The position numbers were made by a program, and so were the translations under genes. DNA of 64,000 nt, taken from NCBI GenBank assembly GCA_029570205.1, contig JAKQSI010000088.1:1-64000 (forward strand), written 5' to 3'. Shown in pieces: positions 592 through 60,475 of the stretch (position 1 is its first letter; the number at the start of each line of letters is the position of its first letter). Under the pieces are notes generated by a model. That model saw only the letters and a program-made list of their open reading frames with translations, was not told the DNA's origin and searched no databases. This DNA is from Candidatus Omnitrophota bacterium (GTDB lineage: Bacteria > Hinthialibacterota > Hinthialibacteria > Hinthialibacterales > JAKPRU01).

Positions 592-621
592 CGTCATTCC
601 GGCACAAGCCGGAATCCAGTG
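592..621. repeat. Short palindromic dispersed repeat, copy 1
   Basis: The segment CATTCCGGCACAAGCCGGAA is an inverted repeat followed by TCCAG. Two close relatives in opposite orientation lie at 49880-49906 and 49925-49953. It sits in the 195-bp gap between thyX and the protease gene. Repeats of this kind are common between genes in many bacteria; no function is shown here. Confidence 0.75.
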
Positions 622-724
622 TCAATGTTCGCCCGTTTTGTCGGGATGTTTCCACCGGCGAAATTCCTCGCATTTGACAAGGCACTCTCGACGGTGGTGG
701 GGATTGAAAGGGAGTGAAGGGAGA

Positions 725-1618
725 TTATTTCCTGTAAAACCGTTTAATTGCCTCCTGGGCACCCTTGGGATCGGCGGTGAACCAGACATAATCCGATCGC
801 ATTGCATCTTGTGCATCAATAGCAAATGCCAGATTATCTGAACCCAGAATAAATGTATTTACCCCAATCCAATGATATGAACCTTTTGCTTCGACAAGAA
901 GCGGCCCACCACTGTTTCCAGGATTGATGGCCGCATCTGTTTGGTATATGCGGTATTTCTTACCCGGCTCCGGATTGCGAACAGCGCTGACTTTCCCGAA
1001 AGTGTGGGTATTCTTCAGGCCGTGTGGCGCTCCCACCGCGACAACATCAGCCCCCTCGGATATGGATAATTCCTTGCCAGAAGGCAATATCACATAATCG
1101 ACCTGTTCTTGAAGTCCTCTTGCACCAACTTCTAACAAGGCAATATCCAATTCCCCATCTTGCTCAGCGAAACGCAATACGGAGGCTGTTTTTCCACTGG
1201 CGAACTCAACTACAAGATCATACGCAAGAATATCCGGCTCAGACATATCGTCGCTGACGGCCAATTCCGCCAAGCCTAGACAATGACTATTGGTGATCAA
1301 AACGATCCTGTCATCCTTTACCGAAATAACTCCTGCACTTCCCGTCCAAGAGTTTGTATCGTTAGACATGACATCCTTTTCTGTCCACTCACTTATCAGC
1401 ATATGTGATGCGATCTTGAGATCCGCAAGCGAGAGACCGCGGGATGCGCTGACGGAACCGGAAAAAGGAGTGTCAAGAGAGCCTTCGTCCGCTTGCCGCA
1501 GGAATATGAACATTGCGGAAACGGCTACAAGGAGTAGAACAATCACGATAATTGAGCGAACGCGAAGAGTCTTGGCGACCTCTTCCGGTTTGAGGTTGCC
1601 TTCGGATTGGATGTCCAT
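725..1618 (-). CDS. Membrane-anchored trypsin-like (HtrA-type) serine protease
   Basis: 297 aa. A single hydrophobic segment at about residues 21-41 follows a basic stretch (KTLRVR), which predicts a cytoplasmic N-terminus and a periplasmic protease domain. The catalytic triad is readable: His112 in ITNSHC, Asp158 in GELDIALLEV, Ser236 in NPGNSGGPLL. ITNSHC departs from the more common TNxHV form but keeps the His. There is no PDZ domain, unlike DegP or DegS. It is the third gene of a tight operon: its ATG lies one base after the stop of the 612-aa gene. Together with the upstream GTPase this suggests a GTPase-controlled protease, which is inference. Catalytic family is confident, role unknown. 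Confidence 0.85.
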   Translation of the reverse strand: MDIQSEGNLKPEEVAKTLRVRSIIVIVLLLVAVSAMFIFLRQADEGSLDTPFSGSVSASRGLSLADLKIASHMLISEWTEKDVMSNDTNSWTGSAGVISVKDDRIVLITNSHCLGLAELAVSDDMSEPDILAYDLVVEFASGKTASVLRFAEQDGELDIALLEVGARGLQEQVDYVILPSGKELSISEGADVVAVGAPHGLKNTHTFGKVSAVRNPEPGKKYRIYQTDAAINPGNSGGPLLVEAKGSYHWIGVNTFILGSDNLAFAIDAQDAMRSDYVWFTADPKGAQEAIKRFYRK

Positions 1619-1619
1619 C

Positions 1620-3458
1620 TTAGAGTTCCTCCAATAATGAGAGATATTGCCTCAAATGGATTTCAATTCTCTCCTGGATATTCATATCCAGGCATTGATC
1701 TGCGTTCGCATGGCAATTCAATGCCCATTTTGAAATCTCTGCGGGTGGTTCAATCGATTCGGGCAGATCTCGAATGACTTTGGCAGCAGCGATTTCATCA
1801 TCAAGGATACCGAGTAATTCCTGATCTGCCACCGCGTCCAGCGGATAGAATAGATACAATAATCCACTCATCGCCAATTCCCGCACTTTTCGGTCCTGAT
1901 TGGTAATTGCCAGACTGAGAAAATATCGAAAAGCCTGTTCAGCCATATTGGGATTCGCATCATTTTGGCGCATCCAATTCCAATGCCGAGCATGAACCCG
2001 GCTGGTCCGGCCTACCGCCATCCGAAACATTTCGCGAAGGACGTGCAGATTCCTGACTGTAATCTGAATCACCGCTTTGGAAAGATCGAGCCATGTCTGA
2101 ATTCCCTTTCGGCGAAACTCGGCGACATATTCTCCCGCAGACTTATTCTCGTCCAATGCAAGTAGACCACCGAACATCTCACCAAGCATTGTTTTCTTTT
2201 TTTTTAATTCCGGTGTCTCGGGATCCCTGAATTCTTGAAGTCTCTTGACGACGGAAATCCCGATTGTCTCGAGTTCCTTCACCACGCAATCGAGATACTC
2301 TGTGTCGCCGATTTTGACCAGCAATTCCTCTCCAAGACGCGGGGAAACTTCGGTGACGAAGATTTGGTGAGGAATCAGATGTTCCTCTTTCTCTCTCTCG
2401 TCGGCCCCATTTGATTTTGAAAACAGATGACCAAGCATCTCATATTCGGAATGGCCCCGGGAAATCCCTTCTTGCTGTAAGGAAAGGCATCGAGTAAATG
2501 TATGGGAGAGAATATCCGTCCCGTCTTCTTTGATCGAAGGACACTTCTTTTGCATTCCGCAAACTCTGGCCTTTATGTCTGACAAATAGTGATTGAGGAA
2601 GGGAAACCATTCCTCGACGTTCCTTGTCAGGAGCACGTGAAAGGGGCCGTCACCCAATTCCAGACATTGGGTGACTTGTTGCAGAGCATGAGTTATCGAG
2701 TCGGTTTTATTGGATCGCCATTCGACAGGGCAGGACGGTATCGCCAATATGCCTGCGATGACATCTCTCGGTGCAAGAACAGAAATACTCCGGACAGGAT
2801 ATTCTATATAGATCACCTCCACGACATCGCTTTCGAGAAGAAAACGAAGCCAGCGAGGAACCTTGCCGTGGAGAAGTTCCTCACCTTCGTGCTGAGCAAG
2901 ATTGCACATCAGGGGCTTGTTTTCCATCACGGTGATAATCTGGTGGTCGACGTCGTAACTCGTCCGCAGATGAAAAGGCTTTTTCAGATGGGTTTCAAAA
3001 AGGGCATATTTCCTATCATCAACGGACTGAATTTTCTCCTTAATTTCAACCGTGAAAGATGGTGGCTGTTTCTGTGCAACAGGCTTGAGTCTGATGAATT
3101 CCGCCTTGTCCAGATCAGAGGGAAGGTTGTACGACAGCAAATGTTGGACCGCATCCCTCCATCCGGTGTCCAGAAGAACCAGGTGAAGCCATGTGTTCTT
3201 CATGTCGGTATAGATTCTTTCGGGATCTAAGGCATATTGCTGAGATCTGAACTTGTCACATGCGCGCAGGAATTCCTGTAAAGGCAAAGCGGCCTGCGGG
3301 GCAATATGGACAAGATCCTGCAACCCGGTATAAAGAACATCGGAAACGTCTTCCTCTTTTCGGGTTGGATGCGGCAAGATGCGGTCGATCAGATGAAAAT
3401 AGCGATTAAACACGTCGTCCAAGCCTGGAAGGCCCATTGCTTCTTCGAAATCCGTCAT
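1620..3458 (-). CDS. Unknown protein, middle gene of the GTPase-protease operon
   Basis: 612 aa from the ATG at 3458, which overlaps the GTPase stop as ATGA; an earlier ATG at 3488 is possible but less likely. I do not recognise a family. There is no signal peptide, clear membrane segment or P-loop. The N-terminal half mixes helix and strand (for example VVEVIYIEYPVRSISVLAP). The C-terminal third looks helical and repeat-like (RKVRELAMSGLLYLF resembles a HEAT-type helix pair), which could suit an adaptor or sensor scaffold. It is co-translated with a dynamin-like GTPase before it and a membrane protease after it. Its codon use looks AT-richer by eye than that of the chromosomal genes around it. 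Confidence 0.8.
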   Translation of the reverse strand: MTDFEEAMGLPGLDDVFNRYFHLIDRILPHPTRKEEDVSDVLYTGLQDLVHIAPQAALPLQEFLRACDKFRSQQYALDPERIYTDMKNTWLHLVLLDTGWRDAVQHLLSYNLPSDLDKAEFIRLKPVAQKQPPSFTVEIKEKIQSVDDRKYALFETHLKKPFHLRTSYDVDHQIITVMENKPLMCNLAQHEGEELLHGKVPRWLRFLLESDVVEVIYIEYPVRSISVLAPRDVIAGILAIPSCPVEWRSNKTDSITHALQQVTQCLELGDGPFHVLLTRNVEEWFPFLNHYLSDIKARVCGMQKKCPSIKEDGTDILSHTFTRCLSLQQEGISRGHSEYEMLGHLFSKSNGADEREKEEHLIPHQIFVTEVSPRLGEELLVKIGDTEYLDCVVKELETIGISVVKRLQEFRDPETPELKKKKTMLGEMFGGLLALDENKSAGEYVAEFRRKGIQTWLDLSKAVIQITVRNLHVLREMFRMAVGRTSRVHARHWNWMRQNDANPNMAEQAFRYFLSLAITNQDRKVRELAMSGLLYLFYPLDAVADQELLGILDDEIAAAKVIRDLPESIEPPAEISKWALNCHANADQCLDMNIQERIEIHLRQYLSLLEEL

Positions 3459-5482
3459 GTTCTCATACTCCGAGCAATATCCGCGCATTCCCGATCAATG
3501 GTCTTGAGATCGGTGTCCACATCTTTGATCAAATCCGCCATTTCGTCCAGCATACCAGTGCTTGAATCCACCACTTTTTGAAGCCCATCGCGCAAATCCT
3601 CCAGCAAGTCATGATGAAAATCTTGAATTCTACTCTCAATCCCCGGCATGATCCGCCCTCGAATATCGGCGCGGCGGTTTGTTTTTCTGGCCTTCTCCTT
3701 AACCTGCAGACAGGTCTTTTCCATAGCGTTCTTGAACTGATTCCAGAATAGCGTCGTAACCGTCAAGCCCCAGACGACAAGAAAGATCAAAAAGAACGGC
3801 CAAATAACGTTCTTGATTTTATCTCCAACAAAGGGAATCCAGGTGAGTGCCTTAAGTAAGAAGCCCCCTAAAGGCACGGCAAGAACCAAACCTATGAACA
3901 TCGGAAAATTCGTTATCATCAATTGTTTCATTCCAGATATGAGCGCAGATGTGATATTTTTGGTGAGATCCGTAACTCCTTGCGGCGGATTAAAAGGCTT
4001 CATATCACCGGGCTTGCACAAGCCCTCCAGGAGATCATCGCAAAGATCACGGACTTTCTCGTTGATTCTTTTCTTTCCGTGATCATCCAGGGGTGTTTCG
4101 TCCTCGAAATACCGCTCAAGATGTCGAATCAGGGTTTTGTCCATTTGCCGTTTCAGTTTGCTTTGCATCTGATCCGAAATTTGTTGTTGGAGTTCCTTTG
4201 AAACAGCCTCTTGAATATTTGAAAACTCGGCGGTTAACTTGCCGTTAACGGGAATCGCACTGATGCTGTCACTGATGATCTGATCCAATCGGTCGATGAT
4301 CCGTTCGTATTCGGAGACGACCTTGTCCTTCAGTTGCTCTATGTCTTCATTTAGTTGTTCCTCATAAGCTTCTTTCGGACGCATCGTGTCCATGACGCGC
4401 AGAAGCTGGGGTTTCAATGCTCCGAATTTCTGAGTGAGTTTACAGCATTCGTTGAGGACACCTTCACGTCGACGGCGCTCAAGGCAGGATTCCTCGGTCT
4501 TGCCGGAACGGAGTATATTTGACTTTGCGCTGACGTAGCTCGACATAGACCGCCGTAGATTGTCGATATTCCATTGCGGGGTGCTGTAATGTTTCGCGGA
4601 TTCGGGAACTTCCTGGGAAAGGTGATAGTTCCGCGCCGAAACAAAAATGGTTCTGTTTTCGTCCACGGCATCCGCCAAAGTCGGCAGATATTCTTTGAGA
4701 TCCTTTTGCGCTTTCTCGCGCGCCAAGGCTTCATCGGAAATGTTGCGGAAAGATTCGGCCTCTTGCCAGAGGTCCCAGAACGTGATGACCGGAATAACGG
4801 GTCTGGCGGTTTGGCGTAGAAATGGGTTGATGACATTCGCGGTGCGGCTGTTGATTGCGTCGGCTTTGACACAGACAATCAGCAGCATGAATTCCTTGAC
4901 CCATTGCTGAAGAGATTGCTCGTCCTTCCAGTAAGGCCCTCCCAAACCGGGAGTATCCAGAAGCTGAATATTCTTGACCGCCATATCTCCAAAAACTTCG
5001 CCGGCAAGGTCACTTGCAGAAAGCACCAAGCGAAAAAAATGCAAGTCCTGGATGGCGCTCTCCCGCTTCCCGGATACCTTCGCCTGGTATTCCTCTTCGC
5101 TGAGGGGTCTTTCATCTCCGTTGAAAGACACTTCGTAGAAGTCGTTTGCCCGCCCGCCCTCTTTGAACTGAATCAACGTGCATTTCGACGTGACAATGCT
5201 TTCGCCGGTCGGCAGGAGATCCTTCGCCTTGGGCGGGAATAGCATGGCGTTCAGCAGGCTGGACTTGCCATGGGAATAGTGGCCGATCACTCCGACATAA
5301 ATCGGACTTTCGATCGATTCCTTTGCCCGGTCTGCGGCGTGACCGACATCATACTGAAAATCCTTGAATTGGTTCTCAAGGTCTTGAAAATGCTTGGTGT
5401 TTTTGAACTTGGCAAGGTGTTCTTCGATTCGGAATTCGCTCAGCCTGTCCAAAATACTCTTCAGTGAGTTGTGGATCTTCAT
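3455..5482 (-). CDS. Dynamin-like GTPase with two membrane segments
   Basis: 675 aa from the ATG at 5482, chosen because GGAG lies just upstream; an ATG at 5497 is also in frame. G motifs: G1 GHYSHGKS at about residues 67-74, G2 Thr in the LLPTGESIVTS region, G3 DTPGLGG at 176, a G4-position TFWD at 234 in place of TKxD, and a possible G5 in IFVSAR near 280. A long charged helical region (about 330-500) is followed by two hydrophobic segments at about 525-548 and 560-580, then another helical tail. This layout resembles bacterial dynamin-like proteins that remodel membranes (family knowledge). It is the first gene of a three-gene operon with an unknown protein and a periplasm-facing protease. 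Role inferred: membrane remodelling or sensing. Confidence 0.85.
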   Translation of the reverse strand: MKIHNSLKSILDRLSEFRIEEHLAKFKNTKHFQDLENQFKDFQYDVGHAADRAKESIESPIYVGVIGHYSHGKSSLLNAMLFPPKAKDLLPTGESIVTSKCTLIQFKEGGRANDFYEVSFNGDERPLSEEEYQAKVSGKRESAIQDLHFFRLVLSASDLAGEVFGDMAVKNIQLLDTPGLGGPYWKDEQSLQQWVKEFMLLIVCVKADAINSRTANVINPFLRQTARPVIPVITFWDLWQEAESFRNISDEALAREKAQKDLKEYLPTLADAVDENRTIFVSARNYHLSQEVPESAKHYSTPQWNIDNLRRSMSSYVSAKSNILRSGKTEESCLERRRREGVLNECCKLTQKFGALKPQLLRVMDTMRPKEAYEEQLNEDIEQLKDKVVSEYERIIDRLDQIISDSISAIPVNGKLTAEFSNIQEAVSKELQQQISDQMQSKLKRQMDKTLIRHLERYFEDETPLDDHGKKRINEKVRDLCDDLLEGLCKPGDMKPFNPPQGVTDLTKNITSALISGMKQLMITNFPMFIGLVLAVPLGGFLLKALTWIPFVGDKIKNVIWPFFLIFLVVWGLTVTTLFWNQFKNAMEKTCLQVKEKARKTNRRADIRGRIMPGIESRIQDFHHDLLEDLRDGLQKVVDSSTGMLDEMADLIKDVDTDLKTIDRECADIARSMRT

Positions 5483-5527
5483 ATAGTCTCCGCTCATAAC
5501 TGTTCACCCCATGTATCGTGAAAATGA

Positions 5528-5550
5528 ATTGATATTTCTCAATTATCAAT
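5528..5550 (-). promoter_or_regulatory. Inverted repeat before the GTPase operon, possible operator
   Basis: ATTGATA and TATCAAT are perfect 7-bp arms separated by 9 bases, about 46 bases before the GTPase start. On the minus strand the left arm contains TTGATA, which could serve as a -35 element. The block is AT-rich compared with its surroundings. It is a plausible promoter or operator, based on position and symmetry only. Confidence 0.35.
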
Positions 5551-6771
5551 GATGCTGTCATGGAATCTGCCAATCTGAATACATTCCAGGACGTATAGCG
5601 GCGTTGTCCCGTTGACAGTTGAAACTTGAGGAGAGGGGTGGCGGTTCCCCCCGCCCGAAGGATAACAGCCCGTGGCAAAAGCCATGATTTCCCCGGCTAC
5701 GGCATAATTTATTTTGTAGATGTTCTGCGTTTGTGGAGGACTGTTATCGGAGGAGATGGGTGGTCGTTGCACCGCGCGAGAGACAACGACCAGAAGCCGG
5801 AGATCTCTCCGGTACCAAATCGCCAAATAATAGTTAAATAATCCATTCGCCCAGCCCCGCGGTGTCCCAAATCCGTATCGCTTTCGCATCACCAAATGAT
5901 ATCCCTTATCCGCAACCACTTCCTCGACGACCGCTCGATCCTCCGGGATCACCGCCTCCAACCGATCCACCGCTTCCTGTACCGTCGTCAGCACACTCTG
6001 CGAATCCCCCACATCCCCCCGATGAATCGTCGCCGCCACCACCGCTCCACTACTCAAGTCCACCCCGTGTTCCGCCTTGTAACCGAAATGCGTACGCCCA
6101 TCCTTCATCTTCGTCACCGCCGCATCCGGATCATTCGGGTTGTACCAGTCGTCGTTCGACGTCGTCTTCTTCCGCTTCCGGTCAAACTCCGCTACCTGCT
6201 CCCGCGTCGGCGTCTCCACACCCGACGCCTTCATTAACCGTTCCAAAAACTCCGTGTAACTCTCTCCCGTGTCCCGACGCACTATCGACCGCATCGCCGC
6301 GTTCGCTTCCAATGTCGTCGCATCCACGCCCAATGTCTTCCCCTCGATCAATCCCTCCTTCTCCAAAATCCCCACAACATATCCGAACACCTCCTGGTGG
6401 GTTTCCAGATCGATCAACCGTCTCGTCCGCGAAATCGTCGAGTGGTCCGGCGGCTCTTTCCCAATCGGAATCCCCAAAAACGACCGCAACGACAGCGAAT
6501 CCTTGCACCGCCACGCAATCCCTCGCTCCGAGTCCACCCCTTCAAAGTACCCGATCAGCAAGGTCCGAAAGTAAATCCCCGGCGCCAATCCCGGACGCCC
6601 CTGTTTCTCCGCATAAAATCGCCGGCATTTCTCCTGACACATCGCGTCAAATTTATGCCGCGCCAGGACCCGATTCAACCGCTCGTAAAACGGATGCCCC
6701 GGCGACTGCGGCATCTCGTTCCAGCACACGTACAATTCTTCCGCTACTTTCTCCTCACGCTGGCCCAACAT
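5539..6771 (-). pseudogene. Truncated DDE transposase (IS1182/IS5-like)
   Basis: The N-terminal part (about 5897-6771) is a clear transposase with a DUF772-type N-terminal domain: GRPGLAPGIYFRTLLIGYF, DHSTISRTRRLI, then the first catalytic Asp in LGVDATTLEANAA and the second in VVADKGYH. Homology stops right after DKGYH. The frame stays open for about 120 more residues of unrelated sequence, so the last catalytic Glu is missing and the enzyme should be inactive. No clear terminal inverted repeats were found. It borders the GTPase operon on its promoter side, suggesting that the island arrived or was reshaped through transposition. Confidence 0.8.
5560..5895. other. Non-coding stretch with hairpins between operon and transposase fragment
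   Basis: This segment replaces the 3' part of the transposase gene. It carries a perfect 8-bp inverted repeat GGTCGTTG/CAACGACC at 5762-5791 and a 7-bp one CCGGAGA/TCTCCGG at 5797-5812. The open frame through it does not look like protein of any family I know. It could be the end of a second mobile element or the source of a small RNA; neither is shown. Confidence 0.4.
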
Positions 6772-6867
6772 CGCGCTGTCCGGCCCTCTCTTTCAGAGAG
6801 TTGATTCTTTATCTTACTCCTATTCAACGTGTCCATAAATCCCTCCCAGACTTTCACCACAGGCTGT

Positions 6868-7196
6868 TAACGTACGCAACCGGGGCAAATCGGAGCGCTG
6901 CTGCGCCGAGAAGGGCTGTACTTCTCCCAACTGGTCCACTGGCGGAAACAATCCCGGGAGGGGGCGTATCGGGCGTTGCGGGATGACCATCGGGGCCGGA
7001 AACGGAAACGCAATCCGTTGGAAGAGGAGAACGAACGGTTGCGTACCCAGGTGGCCTGCCCGGAACGGTGTGCGCACCAGGCGGAAACGATCATCGAACG
7101 GTCCGGATCAACCCTCCGAACCACGCAAGTTTCACACACAAAAAACTCACTAATTTCCAAATGGAACAGTCTGATTGCACTTGGCACGTTCCGATG
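6868..7196 (+). pseudogene. Remnant of IS3-type transposase orfA, copy 1
   Basis: In the frame starting about 6868 the translation includes LLRREGLYFSQLVHWRK, GRKRKRNPLEEENERL and AETIIE. This is the pattern of the IS3/IS2 helix-turn-helix orfA protein with its leucine-zipper-like region. No start is left, an in-frame stop lies just upstream, and orfB is absent. After AETIIE the reading continues as RSGSTLRT and a tail of about 90 bases that is also present at the second copy (61146-61318, minus strand). The shared break point suggests that both copies derive from one internally deleted element. Confidence 0.7.
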
Positions 7197-7373: not shown

Positions 7374-8036
7374 ATGAAAGGGAAACTTGTTGCAGTAGAA
7401 GGATTGGACGGTTCCGGAAAGTCCACGCAGGTGTATTTGCTGAGACGGTGGCTCGAATTGGAGGGTGTCAAGGTCTTTTTCACCGAGTGGAACTCTTCGG
7501 ACCTTGTTAAAAGCGCCACCAAGAGGGGGAAGAATCAGAATCTGCTCACTCCGACGACATTTTGCCTGATTCATTGCACGGATTTCGCCGATCGGTGGGA
7601 ACGTCAGGTCCTTCCTCTTCTCAAGGCCGGATATATCGTCTTGTGCGACCGGTATAAGTTTACGGCCTTTGCACGCGACTCGACACGTGGTTGCGACCGG
7701 GAATGGGTTCGTTCCCTTTACAATTTTGCCACTGTTCCCGATATCACTCTCTTCTTCAAGGCCCCTCTTCAGGTCGCCTTGGACCGCATCCTTTCCGGGC
7801 GGCCTGTTCTGAAATATCACGAAGCAGGAATGGACATGGGGTTTTCCAAGGATCCTTATGAGTGTTTCTCGATTTTCCAGGGGAAAATCAATGATGAATA
7901 TGACAAGATGACCGACGAATTCGGTTTCGTGGTAATCGATGCGACACAATCGATCGAGGTGATGCAACAGGAGGTTCGCAGGATAGTGGCGGAACGCATC
8001 GACTTGGCATCTTATCGGCTGCGAGGAAAAAAGTGA
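7374..8036 (+). CDS. Thymidylate kinase-like protein, first of a tandem pair
   Basis: 220 aa, the usual size for thymidylate kinase, which phosphorylates dTMP to dTDP with ATP. The Walker A motif GLDGSGKST (Lys16) is intact and the DR(Y/x) signature appears as LCDRYKFTAFARD. The start is supported by GGAG upstream. The gene overlaps the next one, a homologue with an altered Walker A. With thyX at the left edge of the window, a role in dTTP supply is reasonable. Such pairs are usually annotated as thymidylate kinase-like; another nucleoside monophosphate as substrate cannot be excluded. Confidence 0.8.
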   Translation: MKGKLVAVEGLDGSGKSTQVYLLRRWLELEGVKVFFTEWNSSDLVKSATKRGKNQNLLTPTTFCLIHCTDFADRWERQVLPLLKAGYIVLCDRYKFTAFARDSTRGCDREWVRSLYNFATVPDITLFFKAPLQVALDRILSGRPVLKYHEAGMDMGFSKDPYECFSIFQGKINDEYDKMTDEFGFVVIDATQSIEVMQQEVRRIVAERIDLASYRLRGKK

Positions 8037-8746
8037 TGACGACCTCTCCCCACAAACCCAAATCCTGGTACGGCAAAGGGATTCCCTGTGTCAATCTGGA
8101 CGAGTTGCAGGGAAGCCTGATCGTGATTGAGGGGGCAGACGGTTCCGGGCGAAGCTCCCAGATCGCCATGCTGAACGACTGGCTGGAGGGGCACGGACGC
8201 GCCACGGTCAGTATGGGATTGCGTCGGTCCAACCTCATCAGTCCCGAACTTGATAAGGCCAAGCAGGGGAATGTGATGGGACGCATCACCATGAATCTGT
8301 TTTACACGACCGATTTCATGGACCAACTGGAGAACCGAATCATTCCCGCTTTGCGCGCCGGATTCATCGTTCTGGCGGATCGTTACATCTATACTCTGCT
8401 CGCGCGGGCCTATGTGCGCGGAATCGAACGCAAGTGGATTGAGGACCTTCTGCTAGGTGTGGCGCTTGTCCCGGATGCGGTTTTCTATCTGAAAGTCAGT
8501 CCCAAGAATCTCATCGAACGCAATTTTGAGAAACACAGTACCCTGGATTACTGGGAATCCGGGATGGATATCGGCATCTCGCAGGATATGTTCGACAGCT
8601 TCGTCAAGTATCAACGGCGTGTCCAGACCGAATTTTCGGGGCTTCAGGAAAGGTTTGGGTTTGAAGTAATCAATGGGAATCGCTCCCCCCGGGCTGTGCA
8701 GCTGGAATTGCAGGCCAAGCTCGCTCGTATACTGGGAGTAGGATAG
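8036..8746 (+). CDS. Thymidylate kinase-like protein with altered P-loop
   Basis: 236 aa from the ATG at 8036, whose A is the last base of the preceding stop; a GTG at 8033 would give one more residue. Paralogue of the upstream gene: VIEGADGSGRSS replaces the P-loop Lys with Arg39, while LADRYIYTLLARAYVRG keeps the DRY-type motif. The N-terminus has about 27 extra residues. Loss of the Walker A Lys normally weakens phosphoryl transfer (family knowledge), so this subunit may be regulatory or form a heterodimer with its neighbour. That is inference. Confidence 0.78.
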   Translation: MTTSPHKPKSWYGKGIPCVNLDELQGSLIVIEGADGSGRSSQIAMLNDWLEGHGRATVSMGLRRSNLISPELDKAKQGNVMGRITMNLFYTTDFMDQLENRIIPALRAGFIVLADRYIYTLLARAYVRGIERKWIEDLLLGVALVPDAVFYLKVSPKNLIERNFEKHSTLDYWESGMDIGISQDMFDSFVKYQRRVQTEFSGLQERFGFEVINGNRSPRAVQLELQAKLARILGVG

Positions 8747-44152: not shown

Positions 44153-47100
44153 TCATTCCAGTTTCACCCAATCGATCTCGAAGTTTACATTTTTGGTAAT
44201 AGTCGGATCGACCCTCAAAAACGTAAGTACCTCTGCCTCCAGGGCCTCCGGAGTGAACGGCGCGGTGACGATATTGAACTCACCTGGAGTCAGCACATAG
44301 TTGCCCAGACGCTGGAATCCGCCCGCGCCGACCGAGAACTGGCATTGCGTTGGAGCGTCCACCTTAATGCGAACGGTAATGGCCGAGATCGATTCTCTCG
44401 GCAGGTTCGACAGGAAGCCCAGGCGCATAAACGGGTCGGTAGTTTTCGCCTGCCCCTTCAGCACACCGTCTGCCACGACGGCATTGTTGATACTCGTGAG
44501 GGCCCAACCCTCAAAGTTCCCGTCTTCATCGAAGTTCCACTCTGTCTCTCGCGGGATATTCTCCATACTGTACAACCCAATCCGGTCGATTTCGAATATC
44601 GCGTTTTGTGTAGTTGCCGGATCGATTCGTACAAAGGTGAGTTCATCGGCGGCGAGAGCCTGCGCGTTCAGCGGGGCAATCACCACATTGACCCCGTTGG
44701 GAAACAGCGCAAAATCGCCAAGAGGATCAAACCCGTTTGCGCCGATAAAGATCTGGCAGCGGGTGGCTCTGTCTACCCGAATACGAACCACGACGGCTTC
44801 AATATCCTGACGCGGCACACTTGTCGCGAAATTGAGCCGCACGAACGGGTCTTTGGTGGTTGCCTCTCCGGTCAGGACACCATTTTCCACCGTGGCATCG
44901 GTAATGTTTGTGGCCACCCAGCCTTCAAAGTTGCCGCTCTCACTGAAGTTCCACTCCAGCCCTCGCGGCGTTCCCGTGGGCGTTACCGTCGGCGTTACCG
45001 TCGGTGTAGAGGTCGCTTCCACTTCTGTAGTCGGAGTGGCGGTCGGTGTCGGGATGATCTCCACGGTTGGTGTCGGGACGATTGTCGGAGGAACCGGTGT
45101 CGCGGTCGCAACCGGTGTATCGGTCGGCCGTGGAGTCGGGGACAACACTTCGCCGAACCACGGCACCTCATTGGACGCGACGGGTTCGGTTATAGTCTCG
45201 GCGGTTTCCGCTTTCACGGTGACATAATATGTTCCGTAGCCGGAAACCAGTAACGCCGATTGTCTCGCCCCGCCGCCTTGAATCCAATCCCCGCCGGTTT
45301 GGATACCGTCCTTATATACATTCAAGATAAACCGTCGGGGGTTCTCCGCACAAACCCAAGTGATGCGCAACAGGGCTGTCGAATCTCCGAGACCTCGGCT
45401 GATGGATGCCTGGACCGCAGAGGGCGGCGGTACGGGTGTGCTGGTGGGCGTCACGGTTGGTGTCGGTGTAACCGTGGGTGTCGGTGTATCTGTGGGCGTA
45501 TCGCTGGCGGTTGGTGTGACGGTGGCTGTCGGTGTATCCGTGCCGGTCGGGGTCACTGTGGGCGTATCGGTCGGCAGTGGCGTATTTGTGGGCGTATCGG
45601 TCGGCAGCGGCGTATTTGTGGGCGTATCGGTGGGCAGCGGCGTATTTGTCGCTGTCGGAGTCGGAGTGGGTGCATCCAAAACCCCGACAACCAGAGTCCC
45701 CACAGACGAACCGCCATGCCCGTCCGTTACCGTAAATGTAATTGTTGGGTACTCTTTCCCGCCAAATTCGCTGCTGCCTTGCGAATAACCCGGGGTCCAG
45801 GTCAGCATCGGTCCGATATAGGAGGGCGGATTGATTACCGCAACGCCGTTCGTGCCATATACCGCACCCTCCGGAAGATCTGCGGCTGTCACGGTTACAG
45901 GATCCGCATCTACATCATTAACACTCACATAATACAGGAACAAGCGCCCTTCCGTCGCCGTCACATTCGCGCTCTCCACAGTCGGCGGATCATTGACGGA
46001 ATAGACGGTAATGCTGACGTTAGCGGAGTTGGAGTCGAGTTCCGTATCGTTTACCTTAAATGTGAAGATGTCGCTTCCATACGAGTTCAGGCTAGGGGTA
46101 TAGGTCAGGTTGGGTGCAGTCCCCGACAGCGTGCCCTGGGTTGGCTGTGTCAGGACCGTATAAGTCAGCGGTTTGCCACTTGGATTAGTGGCCGTAAGAA
46201 CAATGGCTATCGCGACATCTTCGTTGGTCCTAACTGATTGGCCGTACGCAACAGGCGGCAGGGTTGTCCATGGGTCAAAATCCACGTTATTGCTGACCGC
46301 ATCACCAGTCCCTAGCGGATTGGAAGTGTGAGTCGGCCCCAGGGAAGATCCCCACCAGTTGTTTTCGGCGGAAAGAAGTGTAGCCGAGGCGTTAAAAACG
46401 CCATACTCAGTATTCCCTGTTATGATATTGTCGTTCACTATCCAAGACGTGATATTACCCCCCACAGAAATGTCGATATCGATGCCGATGGGGCTGCCGG
46501 AAATCTTGTTATTCGTCAATGTGAGGTTACTGAGTTGTTCCTTCAACCTAAGGCCAGCGATTTTGTTCTGGTCAAAGGTGTTGCCTGTCAATGTGTTATG
46601 GTCCCCATAATCCTCGCGAAAGCCATACTGGGTGTTCGACTTTGCTATATTGTTTGTGAACGTGTTGAAGAGACACCCTGGAGGCTCGCCTGTGTCGGGC
46701 CCTTTAACCAGGTGAAAACCGTATTTGCCGTTGCTGTTTGCCTGGTTGTCTGTTAAATTGTTGTGGCTGGCGGTTTCCATCTTGAAACCATAGCTTGTAT
46801 TCGAACTGGCATCGTTATTCGTAAAGGTGTTGTAGTCCGAGTGGAAAATCTCAAACCCCTGACGCGTGTTGTTCGTAACGGTATTGTTTGTGAAGGTGTT
46901 ATGGTTACTGCCTGAACCGAGCCAGACGCCATCGAAGCTCTCTTTCAGGATGTTATTGGACACATTACAGTTCGCTATGCCAGCATTGATAAAGATTCCC
47001 GCTTTTCCGTCGTTACTGGCGCCAGTCAATGTGAATCCCGATATGCTGACCCCGTTTGCGCTGACTGTGAAGACGGATTGGCTTGGATCGGCTGCGGTCA

Positions 47101-48742
47101 CAATGGTATTATCGCTGCCCGCGCCTTGAAGAATGAGAAGCTTATTGATATTCACATTCTCCGTGTACGTCCCCGCTGCGACAAGAATCGTGTCTCCTGA
47201 TGCGGCCGCATTAACCGCAGCCTGAATGCTCTCGTTCGTGTACCACGTCATTGGCGAGGTTCCGGGAGTCGCTCCCAGCCAGGGGGAATAGTCCACGTTA
47301 TTACTAACCTTATCTCCTGTTCCCGTCGGATTGCTTGTGTCATGACGCGGCCCGGTTGAGGATCCCCACCAGTTGTTTTCGGCAACAACAAGTCTATCCG
47401 AGGCGCTAAGAACGCCATAGGCGTTCGCGTGGAACTTGTTCCCGGTGATCACTGTACCCGAGGGATTCGTGTGATACAGGGCGGCACAATCCTTGTTACT
47501 GTCTTTGCCTGCAGTCGTCCAGCCGGTAACATCGTTGCCGGTTATCTCATTGTTGTCACAGTCAACATTGACATAAATACCATACCCCACCCAGAAATTG
47601 GTTCCCACGCGGGACAGGATATTGTTTTCTATCACGTTGCTATCACAGCCGTCGCTTAGGTCTTGAAGGTATATTCCGAGGTAGATTCCGCATTGCATTT
47701 TGTCTACAGTTGGATCGGTAACATCATAGGTGTCACTGGAAATCTCAATCGTGTTGCTCGATACCGTGTTCTCGTTCGAGTTATGGGAAAGAAGGATCCC
47801 ATGCTTCATGTTACCGGTCAGGTGGTTCTCTTGAACTATGCAACGTTCGCAACCATCTAAGCCACTTAGATCGCCCATAATATAAATACCATTAAAACAG
47901 TCTTCGACAGAATTGCCGCTAACCGTTATATTATCCGAATTATAAACCAGTATCCCGCATCCGTCCCAGTCAGTACAGCGAGTATGACCCCGTATGGTAT
48001 TACCGCTGATGTTTCCACTTACTGATGTAATATCAATTCCATTCAATGCGCCATCCAATTGTGTGACTTCATTATCGCTGATCGTAACCTGGAGGGTTGC
48101 GCCGGACCCGTTCGCGGCAATCCCGTCGCGGGTATAATCCTTCACCGTATTGCCATCAATAGTTAAATTGGAGTTTCCCTGAACGCGGACGCCAAATGAC
48201 TCACATTCCTTCGTTATATCGAACCCCTCTATCGTGCATGAAAACAGACCGGCGTGTTCGCTTTCGCTGGAAACGTTTCCGAAAAAGGCGCCTGCGAAGA
48301 AGCTGGTGTCGGCGATCTTAGTTCGATTATAGGCGTCGATTGTGAATCCTTCGATGCGGACATCAATTGTGCCAGTTGTGGCGGTCGCGGCCACAATATA
48401 ATCCCATGCTGTACCCAATGGAGTGACCTTGCCGGTACGTCCGTTCGGGGCTTGTATGACTGGTGTTGATCCTTCCACGGCTTTCAAAGTCAGCGACTTT
48501 TCTATCAGGATTTGTTCAATATATGTCCCCGTTGCGACAAGAATCGTGTCTCCTGATTCGGCCGCATTAACCGCAGCCTGGATCGTGCCGTAGTTGCCAG
48601 GAACATTTATTGTGCTAGCGCTCACCGCGGTAGGCGCTGGCAGAAACACAAACAGGCCGATCAATAAGGTCAATGCCCGACGGCAATTCTTGTGGTGAAC
48701 AGATTCTTGTGACAGGACTGAGCAGTTCATTGTGTCTTTCAT
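44153..48742 (-). CDS. Giant secreted double beta-helix protein with Thr/Pro linker
   Basis: 1529 aa. Signal peptide ([19 protein letters not shown]). Two right-handed beta-helix modules, each opening with a copy of [21 protein letters not shown] (about residues 50 and 510) and running in NosD-like repeats (NTFTNN, NTITGN). Then two cadherin-like domains (about 880-1080, VNDPPTVE), a low-complexity [13 protein letters not shown] linker (about 1085-1150), a fibronectin-like piece, a second Thr-rich linker and two tandem repeats of about 120 residues at the end (EWNFxExGNFEGW). Likely binds or degrades a polysaccharide; no catalytic residues identified. Terminator follows. Confidence 0.9.
45558..45647 (-). 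repeat. 30-bp tandem repeat, three units, within the linker
   Basis: Three near-identical 30-base units (45558-45587, 45588-45617, 45618-45647) encode [10 protein letters not shown] three times. The units differ by one or two bases. Such arrays vary in copy number by slippage and can be hard to assemble. Confidence 0.85.
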
Positions 48743-56892: not shown

Positions 56893-59800
56893 TCAGTTTT
56901 CATACCGCAGGCTTTGCCTGTCCCAGAACCAGGAGGGGTCCTGAACGGCATGAACGGTGATATCATCGATGGCCAGGGTAGCCGCGTCCTTTACCAGGCC
57001 GGGAACCGCGCCGGGGAGATACCGATTCTGCAGAAGCAGGACGGGGTTGACCCCAGCCGGAACGCGAAAGTCGCCGGTTACCGAAACCTTGACCCAGTCG
57101 CCGTTGCGAGGAAGGTTGTCGTTGCTCATGTAGGTCACCGCTGTGTGCAGGCCGTTTGTCATCGCGATGGCAAAGTATCCTTGTCCGTTTTTCACGGCCT
57201 TAACGTAACACTGCGCGGTGATGGTATGTGGAAATGCAATGCCGGGGAGCGGAAGCGGTCCCGCCAGGACTCGCACATATCCGAGAGGATCGGTCAAGTT
57301 CAGGATCATTGACTGTGCCCGCCCACCGGCAAACAGATCATGGTTGTACAGCAGAGTGAGATAGGCCTCGCCGCCGCTCGTATTTGTGGGGTCGATCTGT
57401 ACCATGTCTCCCAATCCCAGCAGGGTGGACTCAAAGGTTCCGTCGAACGGCCCCGTGTTGATTTCGGTCTTACCCAGAGCGCGATCCATTTTCCGTACGC
57501 TCCGGCAGACACGGATGTTGTCGATGTAGACATACGCGGTTCCACGCGCGTAGGTTCTGGCCGAAATCTGGATTACTCCCTGCAGGAGATCCGTGGGGCT
57601 GTCATAAGTACTCGAGACAAGCTGATATTGCCCGCCGCCTTGAATCTCGTCGGCGGTAATTGTATTGATGGAAAGGTTGGAACTGTCGGCAAACAATCCG
57701 ATCGAAATATCGGGCAGATCGCGGGGTTCAACAGGATTCTCGGCCGCGAAGTACCCCTGAATCGTAACCGTACCCTGGCCGGTCTCGATATACGGTGTCA
57801 TCAGGAGGACATTCTTTCCGGGAGCGACCGTGACCAGCAATCCGTGACCATCCGTGGCCGACGGATCCAGGGATACAGGAATATCGCCCAAACGAGCCGC
57901 TCCGCCACCGCTCAAGCCGACCATCCAGGACGTCGATCCGAGCGCCAGCGCGGAAAAATCGTAGTCTTCCTCCGCATCGCCGCCGATCGGCGGAATGCAG
58001 GAGGATACATAAATCACGGCTCCATCCCGGTCTTTCCAATTGTTCATTCGATAGGCTCGGAGGCTGACGGGAACCGGGTCTTTCACCAGTCCCCCGGGAA
58101 ATGTGCTGAAGAAATAGGTTTGACCACGCGCCACATTCGCGGCTTCCAGCCCCCGACCGATTGTAAACGTTGCAGAAAATGGAATATCCGCGGCATACAC
58201 GCCTTTCGGGAGCATCTGGTTGTACATCGAATACGGCGTAATGAAACAATAATCCTCCAATAAGGGCGCGGGATCTTTTATGAAGGGATCGATCATAAAT
58301 GTAGATGTTTTTACAACCACTTCATCGCTCGCGGAGAATACCCCATCAGTAGCCCTGAAAATAATGGAGCCTTCCGCCGGGGTTGCGGCCGCACGGACGG
58401 AGACCACATTCTGATCGTTAATGGTGAGATCACGAACCGCTCCCTTTATTTCATAAGTCCAATTCACTCCCGCCTGACCGGAATCCCGATCCACAACATA
58501 GTCATCCAGATCGAGCGCGGCGGTCAGGTCTTCGCCGACGATCAGTCGCAGGTCGGGTATATTGCGAATCTCCGGGGCCAGCAGCAATGCCACCCAAACG
58601 GGTGTATTGGTTTGCGGTTCGGTTCCGGTATCCGTTGTCAAATTGGAGAGGCGAATGGTAACAAGGTGTTCGCCCTTCTGGAAAAGGCTGGTGACATTTT
58701 CCGCCGGTCGGACGGGATTGGCGGCGCTGAATGTAACGGTTGCGTTTGCGACGGTTCCGTCCGGTCTTTGTACGTCCAACGCAAGCGTATCATTAATCGA
58801 CAGGGGGCCGCTGCCGTTCTCCGTAGAGGAAAGAACCACGCGAACCGTTCCCTGTTTCGGTTCCACCGGAATGTATACCCGGTTCGTATTGGTGTAGTAG
58901 ATCCCTGTTCGGCCCGGAGTGATACCGGGAGCGAGCTGATTCACCGGCAGCGGTGTAGGGGTATTCGTCGGCGTATTGGACGGTCGTGGGGTCGGTGTCC
59001 AGGTCGCTGTCGGTGTGGGAGTTCGTGTCGAGGTCGGGGTTTGTGTCGGAGTCTGGGAGAGATCGCGAAGCGTTACTTCCCGAATCCGGTGGTTTAGAGA
59101 ATCCACAACCAGAAAACTATCCTGGCTGTACAGTACCAGTCCGACCGGATTATTGAGCCAAGCCAGGAGCGCCGGTCCGCCATCGCCGAAATAGCCGTTT
59201 TTACCGATTCCGGCAATGGTTTCAATGATTCCGTCCTGGTCCACGCGGCGGATGCGGTGGTTTTTGTAATCACTGATGAGGATATTTCCGCGATCATCGA
59301 TCAACACATCCTGCGGATAGGTCATCTTGGCTTGTGTTGCCGGTCCGCCATCTCCCGAAAATCCGTTTTGTTGACCGATTCCGGCGATGGTTGTAATGAT
59401 TCCATTTGTGTCGACTTTGCGGACGACACTATTGAATTGGTCCACGATATAGATGTTGCCCAGGCGGTCCAGATCGATGCCGGACGGGTAAAGAAGCAAT
59501 GCTTCGGTGGCCGGTCCCCCGTCTCCCGCGTAGCCGAACTCAGTACCTCCGACACCGGCGATGGTCCGCACCATGCCGGAGGTATCCACAACGCGGATGC
59601 GGAAATTGGAACTGTCTACCACGTACACATTTCCGGTTGCATCCACCGTGAGGTCGGCGGGCATTTTGAACAAAGCTTCCGTGGCGGGGACAACCTCGCC
59701 ACCGACACCCGCGAAGCGACCGATACCCGCAAAGGTGGTGATAATGCCGTTTCGGTCAACTTTTCGGATGCAGTGATTATCGGTATCCGCGATGAGAATG

Positions 59801-60210
59801 GAGCCGTCTGCCAGCGCGGCGACGCCTTTCGGTTTGTTGAGCGAGGCATCGGTCGCGGGTCCGCCGTCACCGGAAAACGAGGGGAGTCCGTTGCCCGCGA
59901 AGGTACTCACAATACCCCTGCGGTCGATCCGGCGAATACGGTTGTTGTCGCGATCTGTAATAAAAATATTCCCGTCGGGATCAACAGCGGCGTTCCAGGG
60001 GGTGTTGAAACGGGCCTCGACTGCCGGGGAGCCATCCCCTGCGAATCCGGCGACGCCCGAACCGGCGAAATTCAATATAGAATAAGAATTGGGCGCCTGG
60101 CCGGAGGCAACATGGGCCGCCCAGAGAAGGAAAAGAATTGTGAGGAATGCGATGATGACAGAGTGTATCCGCGAACGGGGCTGACATTGGGGGTGGGCGG
60201 CGGCGTACAT
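56893..60210 (-). CDS. Secreted six-bladed NHL propeller protein with Thr/Pro linker
   Basis: 1105 aa from the ATG at 60210 (AGGAG upstream). Signal peptide (IIAFLTILFLLWAAHVASG). Six NHL blades of about 55 residues with the phrase FSGDGGPAT and DxxNHRIRRVD, a complete propeller (about 45-395). Then a TPTPTATWTPTPRPSNTPT linker, a beta domain, a cadherin-like domain (about 600-660), and a C-terminal domain with carbohydrate-binding style strands. Shares its linker type with the beta-helix protein at 44153. Probably exported to the surface; the ligand is unknown. Confidence 0.88.
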   Translation of the reverse strand: MYAAAHPQCQPRSRIHSVIIAFLTILFLLWAAHVASGQAPNSYSILNFAGSGVAGFAGDGSPAVEARFNTPWNAAVDPDGNIFITDRDNNRIRRIDRRGIVSTFAGNGLPSFSGDGGPATDASLNKPKGVAALADGSILIADTDNHCIRKVDRNGIITTFAGIGRFAGVGGEVVPATEALFKMPADLTVDATGNVYVVDSSNFRIRVVDTSGMVRTIAGVGGTEFGYAGDGGPATEALLLYPSGIDLDRLGNIYIVDQFNSVVRKVDTNGIITTIAGIGQQNGFSGDGGPATQAKMTYPQDVLIDDRGNILISDYKNHRIRRVDQDGIIETIAGIGKNGYFGDGGPALLAWLNNPVGLVLYSQDSFLVVDSLNHRIREVTLRDLSQTPTQTPTSTRTPTPTATWTPTPRPSNTPTNTPTPLPVNQLAPGITPGRTGIYYTNTNRVYIPVEPKQGTVRVVLSSTENGSGPLSINDTLALDVQRPDGTVANATVTFSAANPVRPAENVTSLFQKGEHLVTIRLSNLTTDTGTEPQTNTPVWVALLLAPEIRNIPDLRLIVGEDLTAALDLDDYVVDRDSGQAGVNWTYEIKGAVRDLTINDQNVVSVRAAATPAEGSIIFRATDGVFSASDEVVVKTSTFMIDPFIKDPAPLLEDYCFITPYSMYNQMLPKGVYAADIPFSATFTIGRGLEAANVARGQTYFFSTFPGGLVKDPVPVSLRAYRMNNWKDRDGAVIYVSSCIPPIGGDAEEDYDFSALALGSTSWMVGLSGGGAARLGDIPVSLDPSATDGHGLLVTVAPGKNVLLMTPYIETGQGTVTIQGYFAAENPVEPRDLPDISIGLFADSSNLSINTITADEIQGGGQYQLVSSTYDSPTDLLQGVIQISARTYARGTAYVYIDNIRVCRSVRKMDRALGKTEINTGPFDGTFESTLLGLGDMVQIDPTNTSGGEAYLTLLYNHDLFAGGRAQSMILNLTDPLGYVRVLAGPLPLPGIAFPHTITAQCYVKAVKNGQGYFAIAMTNGLHTAVTYMSNDNLPRNGDWVKVSVTGDFRVPAGVNPVLLLQNRYLPGAVPGLVKDAATLAIDDITVHAVQDPSWFWDRQSLRYEN

Positions 60211-60475
60211 GCGCGTGTCTCCTGCACAGGATTTCACCCCGTCCCTGGGCGGCGGGAGCCACCCCACCGGCCATTGCCGCGCCCCGATATAGCGGCCTCA
60301 AAGAGCAGTCCAATACAAAACAAGTATGCGGCGTCCCACATACTTTCTACGATTATCGTCCGGATCTCAAGGACCTTTAGGTTTCGAGAAAGCCAAAAAA
60401 CGGCAGGAACGGTTCTTGTTGTCGGCCATGGCCTGGGTATTCCTTTTAGATTGGACGACTTAGAATACCCTCACC

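Follow-up and report, generated by a model that had tools for sequence, protein, structure and literature searches.

The window analyzed here is a stretch of 64,000 nucleotides whose position 1 is the end of contig C48, in a genome assembled in 131 contigs. Our analyses revealed three consecutive minus-strand genes in it, encoding a dynamin-like GTPase of 680 aa (5497–3455), an orphan protein of 612 aa (3458–1620) and an HtrA/Trypsin_2-type serine protease of 297 aa (1618–725). The GTPase gene and the middle gene overlap by four bases, ATGA, with the TGA of the former at 3457–3455 and the ATG of the latter at 3458–3456, and a gap of one base separates the middle gene from the protease gene. 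These coordinates and junction letters agree with the arrangement described in the initial annotation, and the overlap and the one-base gap imply translational coupling of the trio. The three frames are far longer than chance would produce; for the 612-codon frame the chance probability is ~1.7e-13. The block is also AT-richer than its surroundings, as had been judged by eye, with 47.7–48.9% GC compared to 50–57% in the neighboring genes; overall GC is similar among the three genes, whereas their GC3 differs (0.47–0.58). Elsewhere in the window lie genes for two probably exported proteins, a very large beta-helix/NosD/Ig protein of 1529 aa (44153–48742) and an NHL-repeat protein of 1124 aa (56893–60267).

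The GTPase matches the Pfam family Dynamin_N (PF00350) with an E value of 3.5e-12 and 47.1 bits (cut-off 27). Its G1 (GHYSHGKS, residues 72–79), G3 (DTPG, 181) and G5-like (SAR, 287) motifs are intact, and a candidate G4 motif, TFWD (239), keeps the aspartate but is missing the usual lysine. Two hydrophobic segments in the C-terminal third, at ~530–585, are predicted to form a transmembrane (TM) hairpin followed by a helical tail, in agreement with the dynamin-like GTPase with two membrane segments proposed at the outset. A single-sequence structural model reached a mean pLDDT of 39, with the hairpin alone near 60–70 and all other parts too poor to use, and the placement of the hairpin would resemble that in mitofusin/Fzo-type dynamins. 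A Shine-Dalgarno-like GGGGTGA lies upstream of the gene. The GTPase also gave a long but weak match (6e-18) to the PADLOC profile for LeoA. However, 9/10 generic, unrelated dynamins match the same profile, at 1e-6 to 3e-25 and one of them much better, so the match means only "bacterial dynamin", and the Eleos (LeoA) label was rejected as non-specific.

The middle protein matched no recognized domain. Searches with the whole sequence or with the sequence cut in three found no significant Pfam match, and PADLOC, NCBIfam, PHROGs and PDB sequences likewise contained no significant match, consistent with its initial description as a protein without recognized domains. A longer in-frame open reading frame begins at 3488 inside the GTPase gene and would encode 622 aa at most, but the 612-aa form is likely because its start sits in the ATGA overlap. 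The protein is acidic (net charge −23) and looks soluble and cytosolic, with a peak 19-residue hydropathy of 1.51, no clear TM segment and no signal peptide, P-loop or HExxH motif. With neither a P-loop nor a Dynamin_N match in this neighbor, the operon contains no second dynamin. A single-sequence model of very low confidence (mean pLDDT 36) suggests that the C-terminal part may be helix-rich.

The protease matches Trypsin_2 (Pfam; E value 2.5e-18), retains an intact catalytic triad (H112, D158, S236) and has a single N-terminal TM anchor at residues ~22–40. It is closest to the HtrA/DegS-type envelope stress proteases, yet falls far below the HtrA family cut-offs, and no PDZ domain was matched, with only 61 residues following the catalytic serine. 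The protease domain is predicted to be periplasmic, with modest support from the positive-inside rule. Thus, the trypsin-like protease recognized initially was confirmed, and its periplasm-facing orientation stands as a prediction.

The trio lies within a lineage-specific segment, 620–7193, at both sides of which matches to the two congeneric genomes used for flank comparison, G001 and G002, break off. On the left, the window contains the 3′ part of thyX (47–529), overlapping the end of contig C46, where thyX continues and along which the thyX-side synteny runs on; the match on this side ends at 620 in G001 and at 577 in G002. On the right, alignments with the tmk pairs of the two congeners, at 97% and 86%, extend rightwards from 7193/7194 and go no further left. 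In both congeners thyX and the tmk pair occupy separate, unrelated loci on different contigs, the G002 contigs being short. Specifically, thyX of G001 adjoins a glucosamine-6-phosphate isomerase-like gene and a purQ-like gene, and upstream of its tmk, in our own reading of the open frames, lie a LacI-type regulator and obg- and rplU-like genes; the sequence upstream of tmk in G002 is unrelated. The stretches examined in seven relatives likewise showed no thyX next to the tmk pair. Judged from these alignments, the segment is a rearrangement junction that joins two loci separate in the relatives, and the initial view of a thymidylate gene group split by the block therefore finds no support.

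Besides the trio, the segment contains two transposase remnants, nothing else of note and, over its 6.6 kb, no defence genes. The first remnant is a C-terminally truncated IS1182-type transposase (5539–6771, minus strand), in which the family match ends at residue 291. The second resembles the N-terminal part of an IS3-type transposase (6850–7125, plus strand; E value 0.0063). The transposase borders noted initially therefore hold for the truncated element, whereas the IS3 remnant is a weak match. Several other features flank the trio. A dispersed palindromic repeat, CATTCCGGCACAAGCCGGAATCCAG, at 576–621 recurs on contig C46 and in both congeners, close to thyX in G001 and upstream of tmk in G002. 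At 694–710 the sequence GTGGTGGGGATTGAAAG, present as a single copy in the window, is like the 3′ end of some CRISPR repeats. The region 7374–8746 holds two adjacent, overlapping dTMP-kinase genes that are ~34% identical, a pair conserved across much of the phylum.

The same genome carries a decayed relative of the GTPase gene on a second contig, C8 (L008, 8780–9040). This relic of ~260 bp covers the first 86 codons, is 70–75% identical to the GTPase N terminus and carries a stop and a frameshift; the upstream GGGGTGAAC, the start region and the start codon of the GTPase gene are also conserved in it. It stands alone, with neither the middle gene nor the protease gene, and was not found in G001 or G002. 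The sequence after it reads to us like an IS66-type transposase remnant, with no family match. Across 57 codons compared between the GTPase gene and the relic, 27 of ~33 synonymous sites have changed (82%, saturated) compared to 21 of ~138 nonsynonymous sites (15%), indicating ancient divergence under strong purifying selection. This pattern supports a functional GTPase family with an accessory, gain-and-loss history. The trio, seen in one genome, is a real and intact operon that is probably functional.

Relatives of the trio proved scarce. Among 386 genomes, the best relatives of the GTPase were generic dynamins matching part of the G domain, mostly with 20–40% identity over part of the protein, and further phylum samples of 5 and 296 genomes yielded only weak matches, again to generic dynamins. 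A plasmid search with the GTPase returned two generic dynamins, and a phage search returned none. The middle protein had no credible relative in the 386 genomes, where tblastn gave only noise, or in 72,556 plasmids; the best-looking tblastn candidate, an open frame in L014, was unrelated. Exact short peptide patterns of the middle protein and the GTPase, a search that reaches close relatives only, were absent from 84,980 species genomes. The neighborhoods of 86 dynamin genes taken from these genome samples, read over up to ~19 kb and in some cases shortened by contig ends, contained no trypsin-like protease (0/86, by the motif G[ND]SGGP and by phmmer with the protease) and no phmmer match to the middle protein, and no trypsin was annotated in the Gordonia and Nostoc dynamin neighborhoods. 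By our own estimate about one trypsin-like protease would be expected in the 86 neighborhoods by chance at typical density, and the result thus gives no sign of a general association between dynamins and trypsins. On the mobilizable Gordonia plasmid pG135 (L030, 5863–10972), genes for a dynamin, another GTPase and an Hsp70 protein stand in a row. The initial annotation had named the absence of the three genes together elsewhere as a ground for refuting it, and in this limited sampling no second occurrence was found. This absence shows rarity, not lack of function, and the trio looks like an unusual, lineage-specific gene combination that includes one protein matching no known family.

We tentatively favor the reading of the trio as an accessory membrane-surveillance operon that would respond to envelope stress or phage damage. 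The GTPase would work as a solo bacterial dynamin that is anchored in the inner membrane through the hairpin between its helical segments, with the 612-aa protein as its cytosolic partner or adaptor in place of the usual second dynamin. On the periplasmic face, the PDZ-less HtrA-like protease would be under the control of GTPase complex assembly, exerted through the membrane segments. Envelope damage by phage, antimicrobial or stress would trigger GTP-driven clustering, by which the membrane may be stabilized or reshaped and the protease concentrated or activated; the protease would then clear damaged proteins or cleave a target. The three-protein partnership, the trigger, the activation step and the outcome are all inferred. 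The initial annotation had the middle protein relaying a signal from the GTPase to the protease. The pairing of a membrane GTPase with an envelope protease fits the predicted anatomy, but a cytosolic middle protein could not reach a periplasmic protease directly. Because topology prediction puts the protease domain in the periplasm but leaves the middle protein and the GTPase domain in the cytosol, any relay would need to cross by way of either the GTPase hairpin or the protease TM segment, which modifies the initial model.

Features of the DNA itself that are consistent with the surveillance reading are the ATGA and one-base spacing, the intact motifs, the TM segments and the constrained GTPase N terminus. 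By analogy, it also draws on the protection of membranes and against phage by DynA, the need of most bacterial dynamins for a partner and the likeness of the protease to HtrA/DegS. Counting against it are the 0/86 dynamin-trypsin neighborhoods, the absence of adjacent defence genes and the modest support for the protease orientation, and with no second occurrence of the trio co-evolution is not demonstrable. The operon linkage might also be a recent assembly beside the transposons. A bolder reading, an as yet undescribed membrane-conflict system in which a solo anchored dynamin and a new family of cytosolic adaptors signal across the inner membrane to an HtrA-like protease in the periplasm, seems to us rather improbable. 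If the three proteins cooperate, dynamin membrane remodeling would be linked to proteolysis across the membrane, in a set that includes a 612-aa protein without a match in family libraries; for now the trio is a single occurrence with clear signs of function.

Close behind the surveillance reading, as a possible though less probable account, we place a GTPase-centered conflict system following the logic of DO-GTPase-GAP1-effector systems, in which a switch, an adaptor and a protease effector would bring about dormancy or death of the infected cell. The gene order of GTPase, large partner and effector parallels those systems, in which trypsin is among the effectors and GAP1 is likewise encoded downstream of the GTPase (PMC7159879), and the accessory, lineage-specific location and a fast-evolving middle protein would fit. 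However, the GTPase is a dynamin rather than a double-GTPase, GAP1, GASH, FNIII and EAD domains were not detected, a periplasmic active site is less obvious for a suicide effector, and no defence genes are nearby. More doubtful is a LeoABC-like module for envelope maintenance or vesiculation, in which the dynamin would remodel the membrane or promote vesicle release, the protease would handle quality control, and neither would take part in conflict. The HtrA type of the protease and the promotion of vesicle release by LeoABC dynamins (PMC4159319) speak for it, but the LeoA profile match is non-specific, the second dynamin is missing and LeoABC as described includes no protease.

Two further explanations arise from where the trio lies, in a junction segment that also holds a pair of transposase remnants and seems to stem from rearrangement. 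Transposon-driven rearrangement could have joined genes that are co-transcribed but share no function, and both the failure to find the trio elsewhere and the C8 relic, which is accompanied by neither of the other genes, agree with such a chance assembly. We consider it unlikely, as an ATGA overlap and a one-base gap between intact same-strand genes would be improbable for a recent random join and the overall GC is alike in the three genes, though their GC3 varies. Very unlikely in our estimate is a contig misjoin that would make the trio foreign to the thyX or tmk neighborhood. The draft state of the genome, the IS sequences at the junction and the start of the window at a contig end would permit such an error, but the operon is internally contiguous, the thyX and tmk flanks match the congeners at 86–97%, and the genome carries a relative of the GTPase on a different contig.

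Comparison with described systems places the trio among several partial likenesses. Similar to the nuclease-trypsin pairs, which combine an MBL-fold nuclease as proenzyme with a protease fused to a defence enzyme (PMC12799240), it has a trypsin-like protease in a compact operon, but neither a proenzyme nuclease nor such a fusion is seen here. With the DO-GTPase-GAP1 systems, which combine a GTPase, a large uncharacterized partner and a variable effector, the trio shares only the logic of a GTPase, a large downstream partner and a protease-type effector; dynamin takes the place of the double-GTPase, and the characteristic domains had no Pfam match. The protease shares with DegS/HtrA the N-terminal TM anchor, the HtrA-type catalytic domain and the triad, and differs from them in having no PDZ sensor domain. 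Neither the middle protein nor the protease matched LeoBC in PADLOC, so the operon includes no LeoBC gene. Most bacterial dynamins act in pairs and need a partner encoded alongside (PMC6104087), and the Bacillus subtilis dynamin DynA shields membranes from damage and delays lysis by phage (PMC8844932). Like DynA, BDLP, Cj-DLP1/2 and LeoA, the GTPase has a Dynamin_N domain with G1 and G3 motifs, and it may share their long helical part and membrane attachment; unlike them, it is a single, very divergent dynamin whose partner genes encode an orphan protein and a protease.
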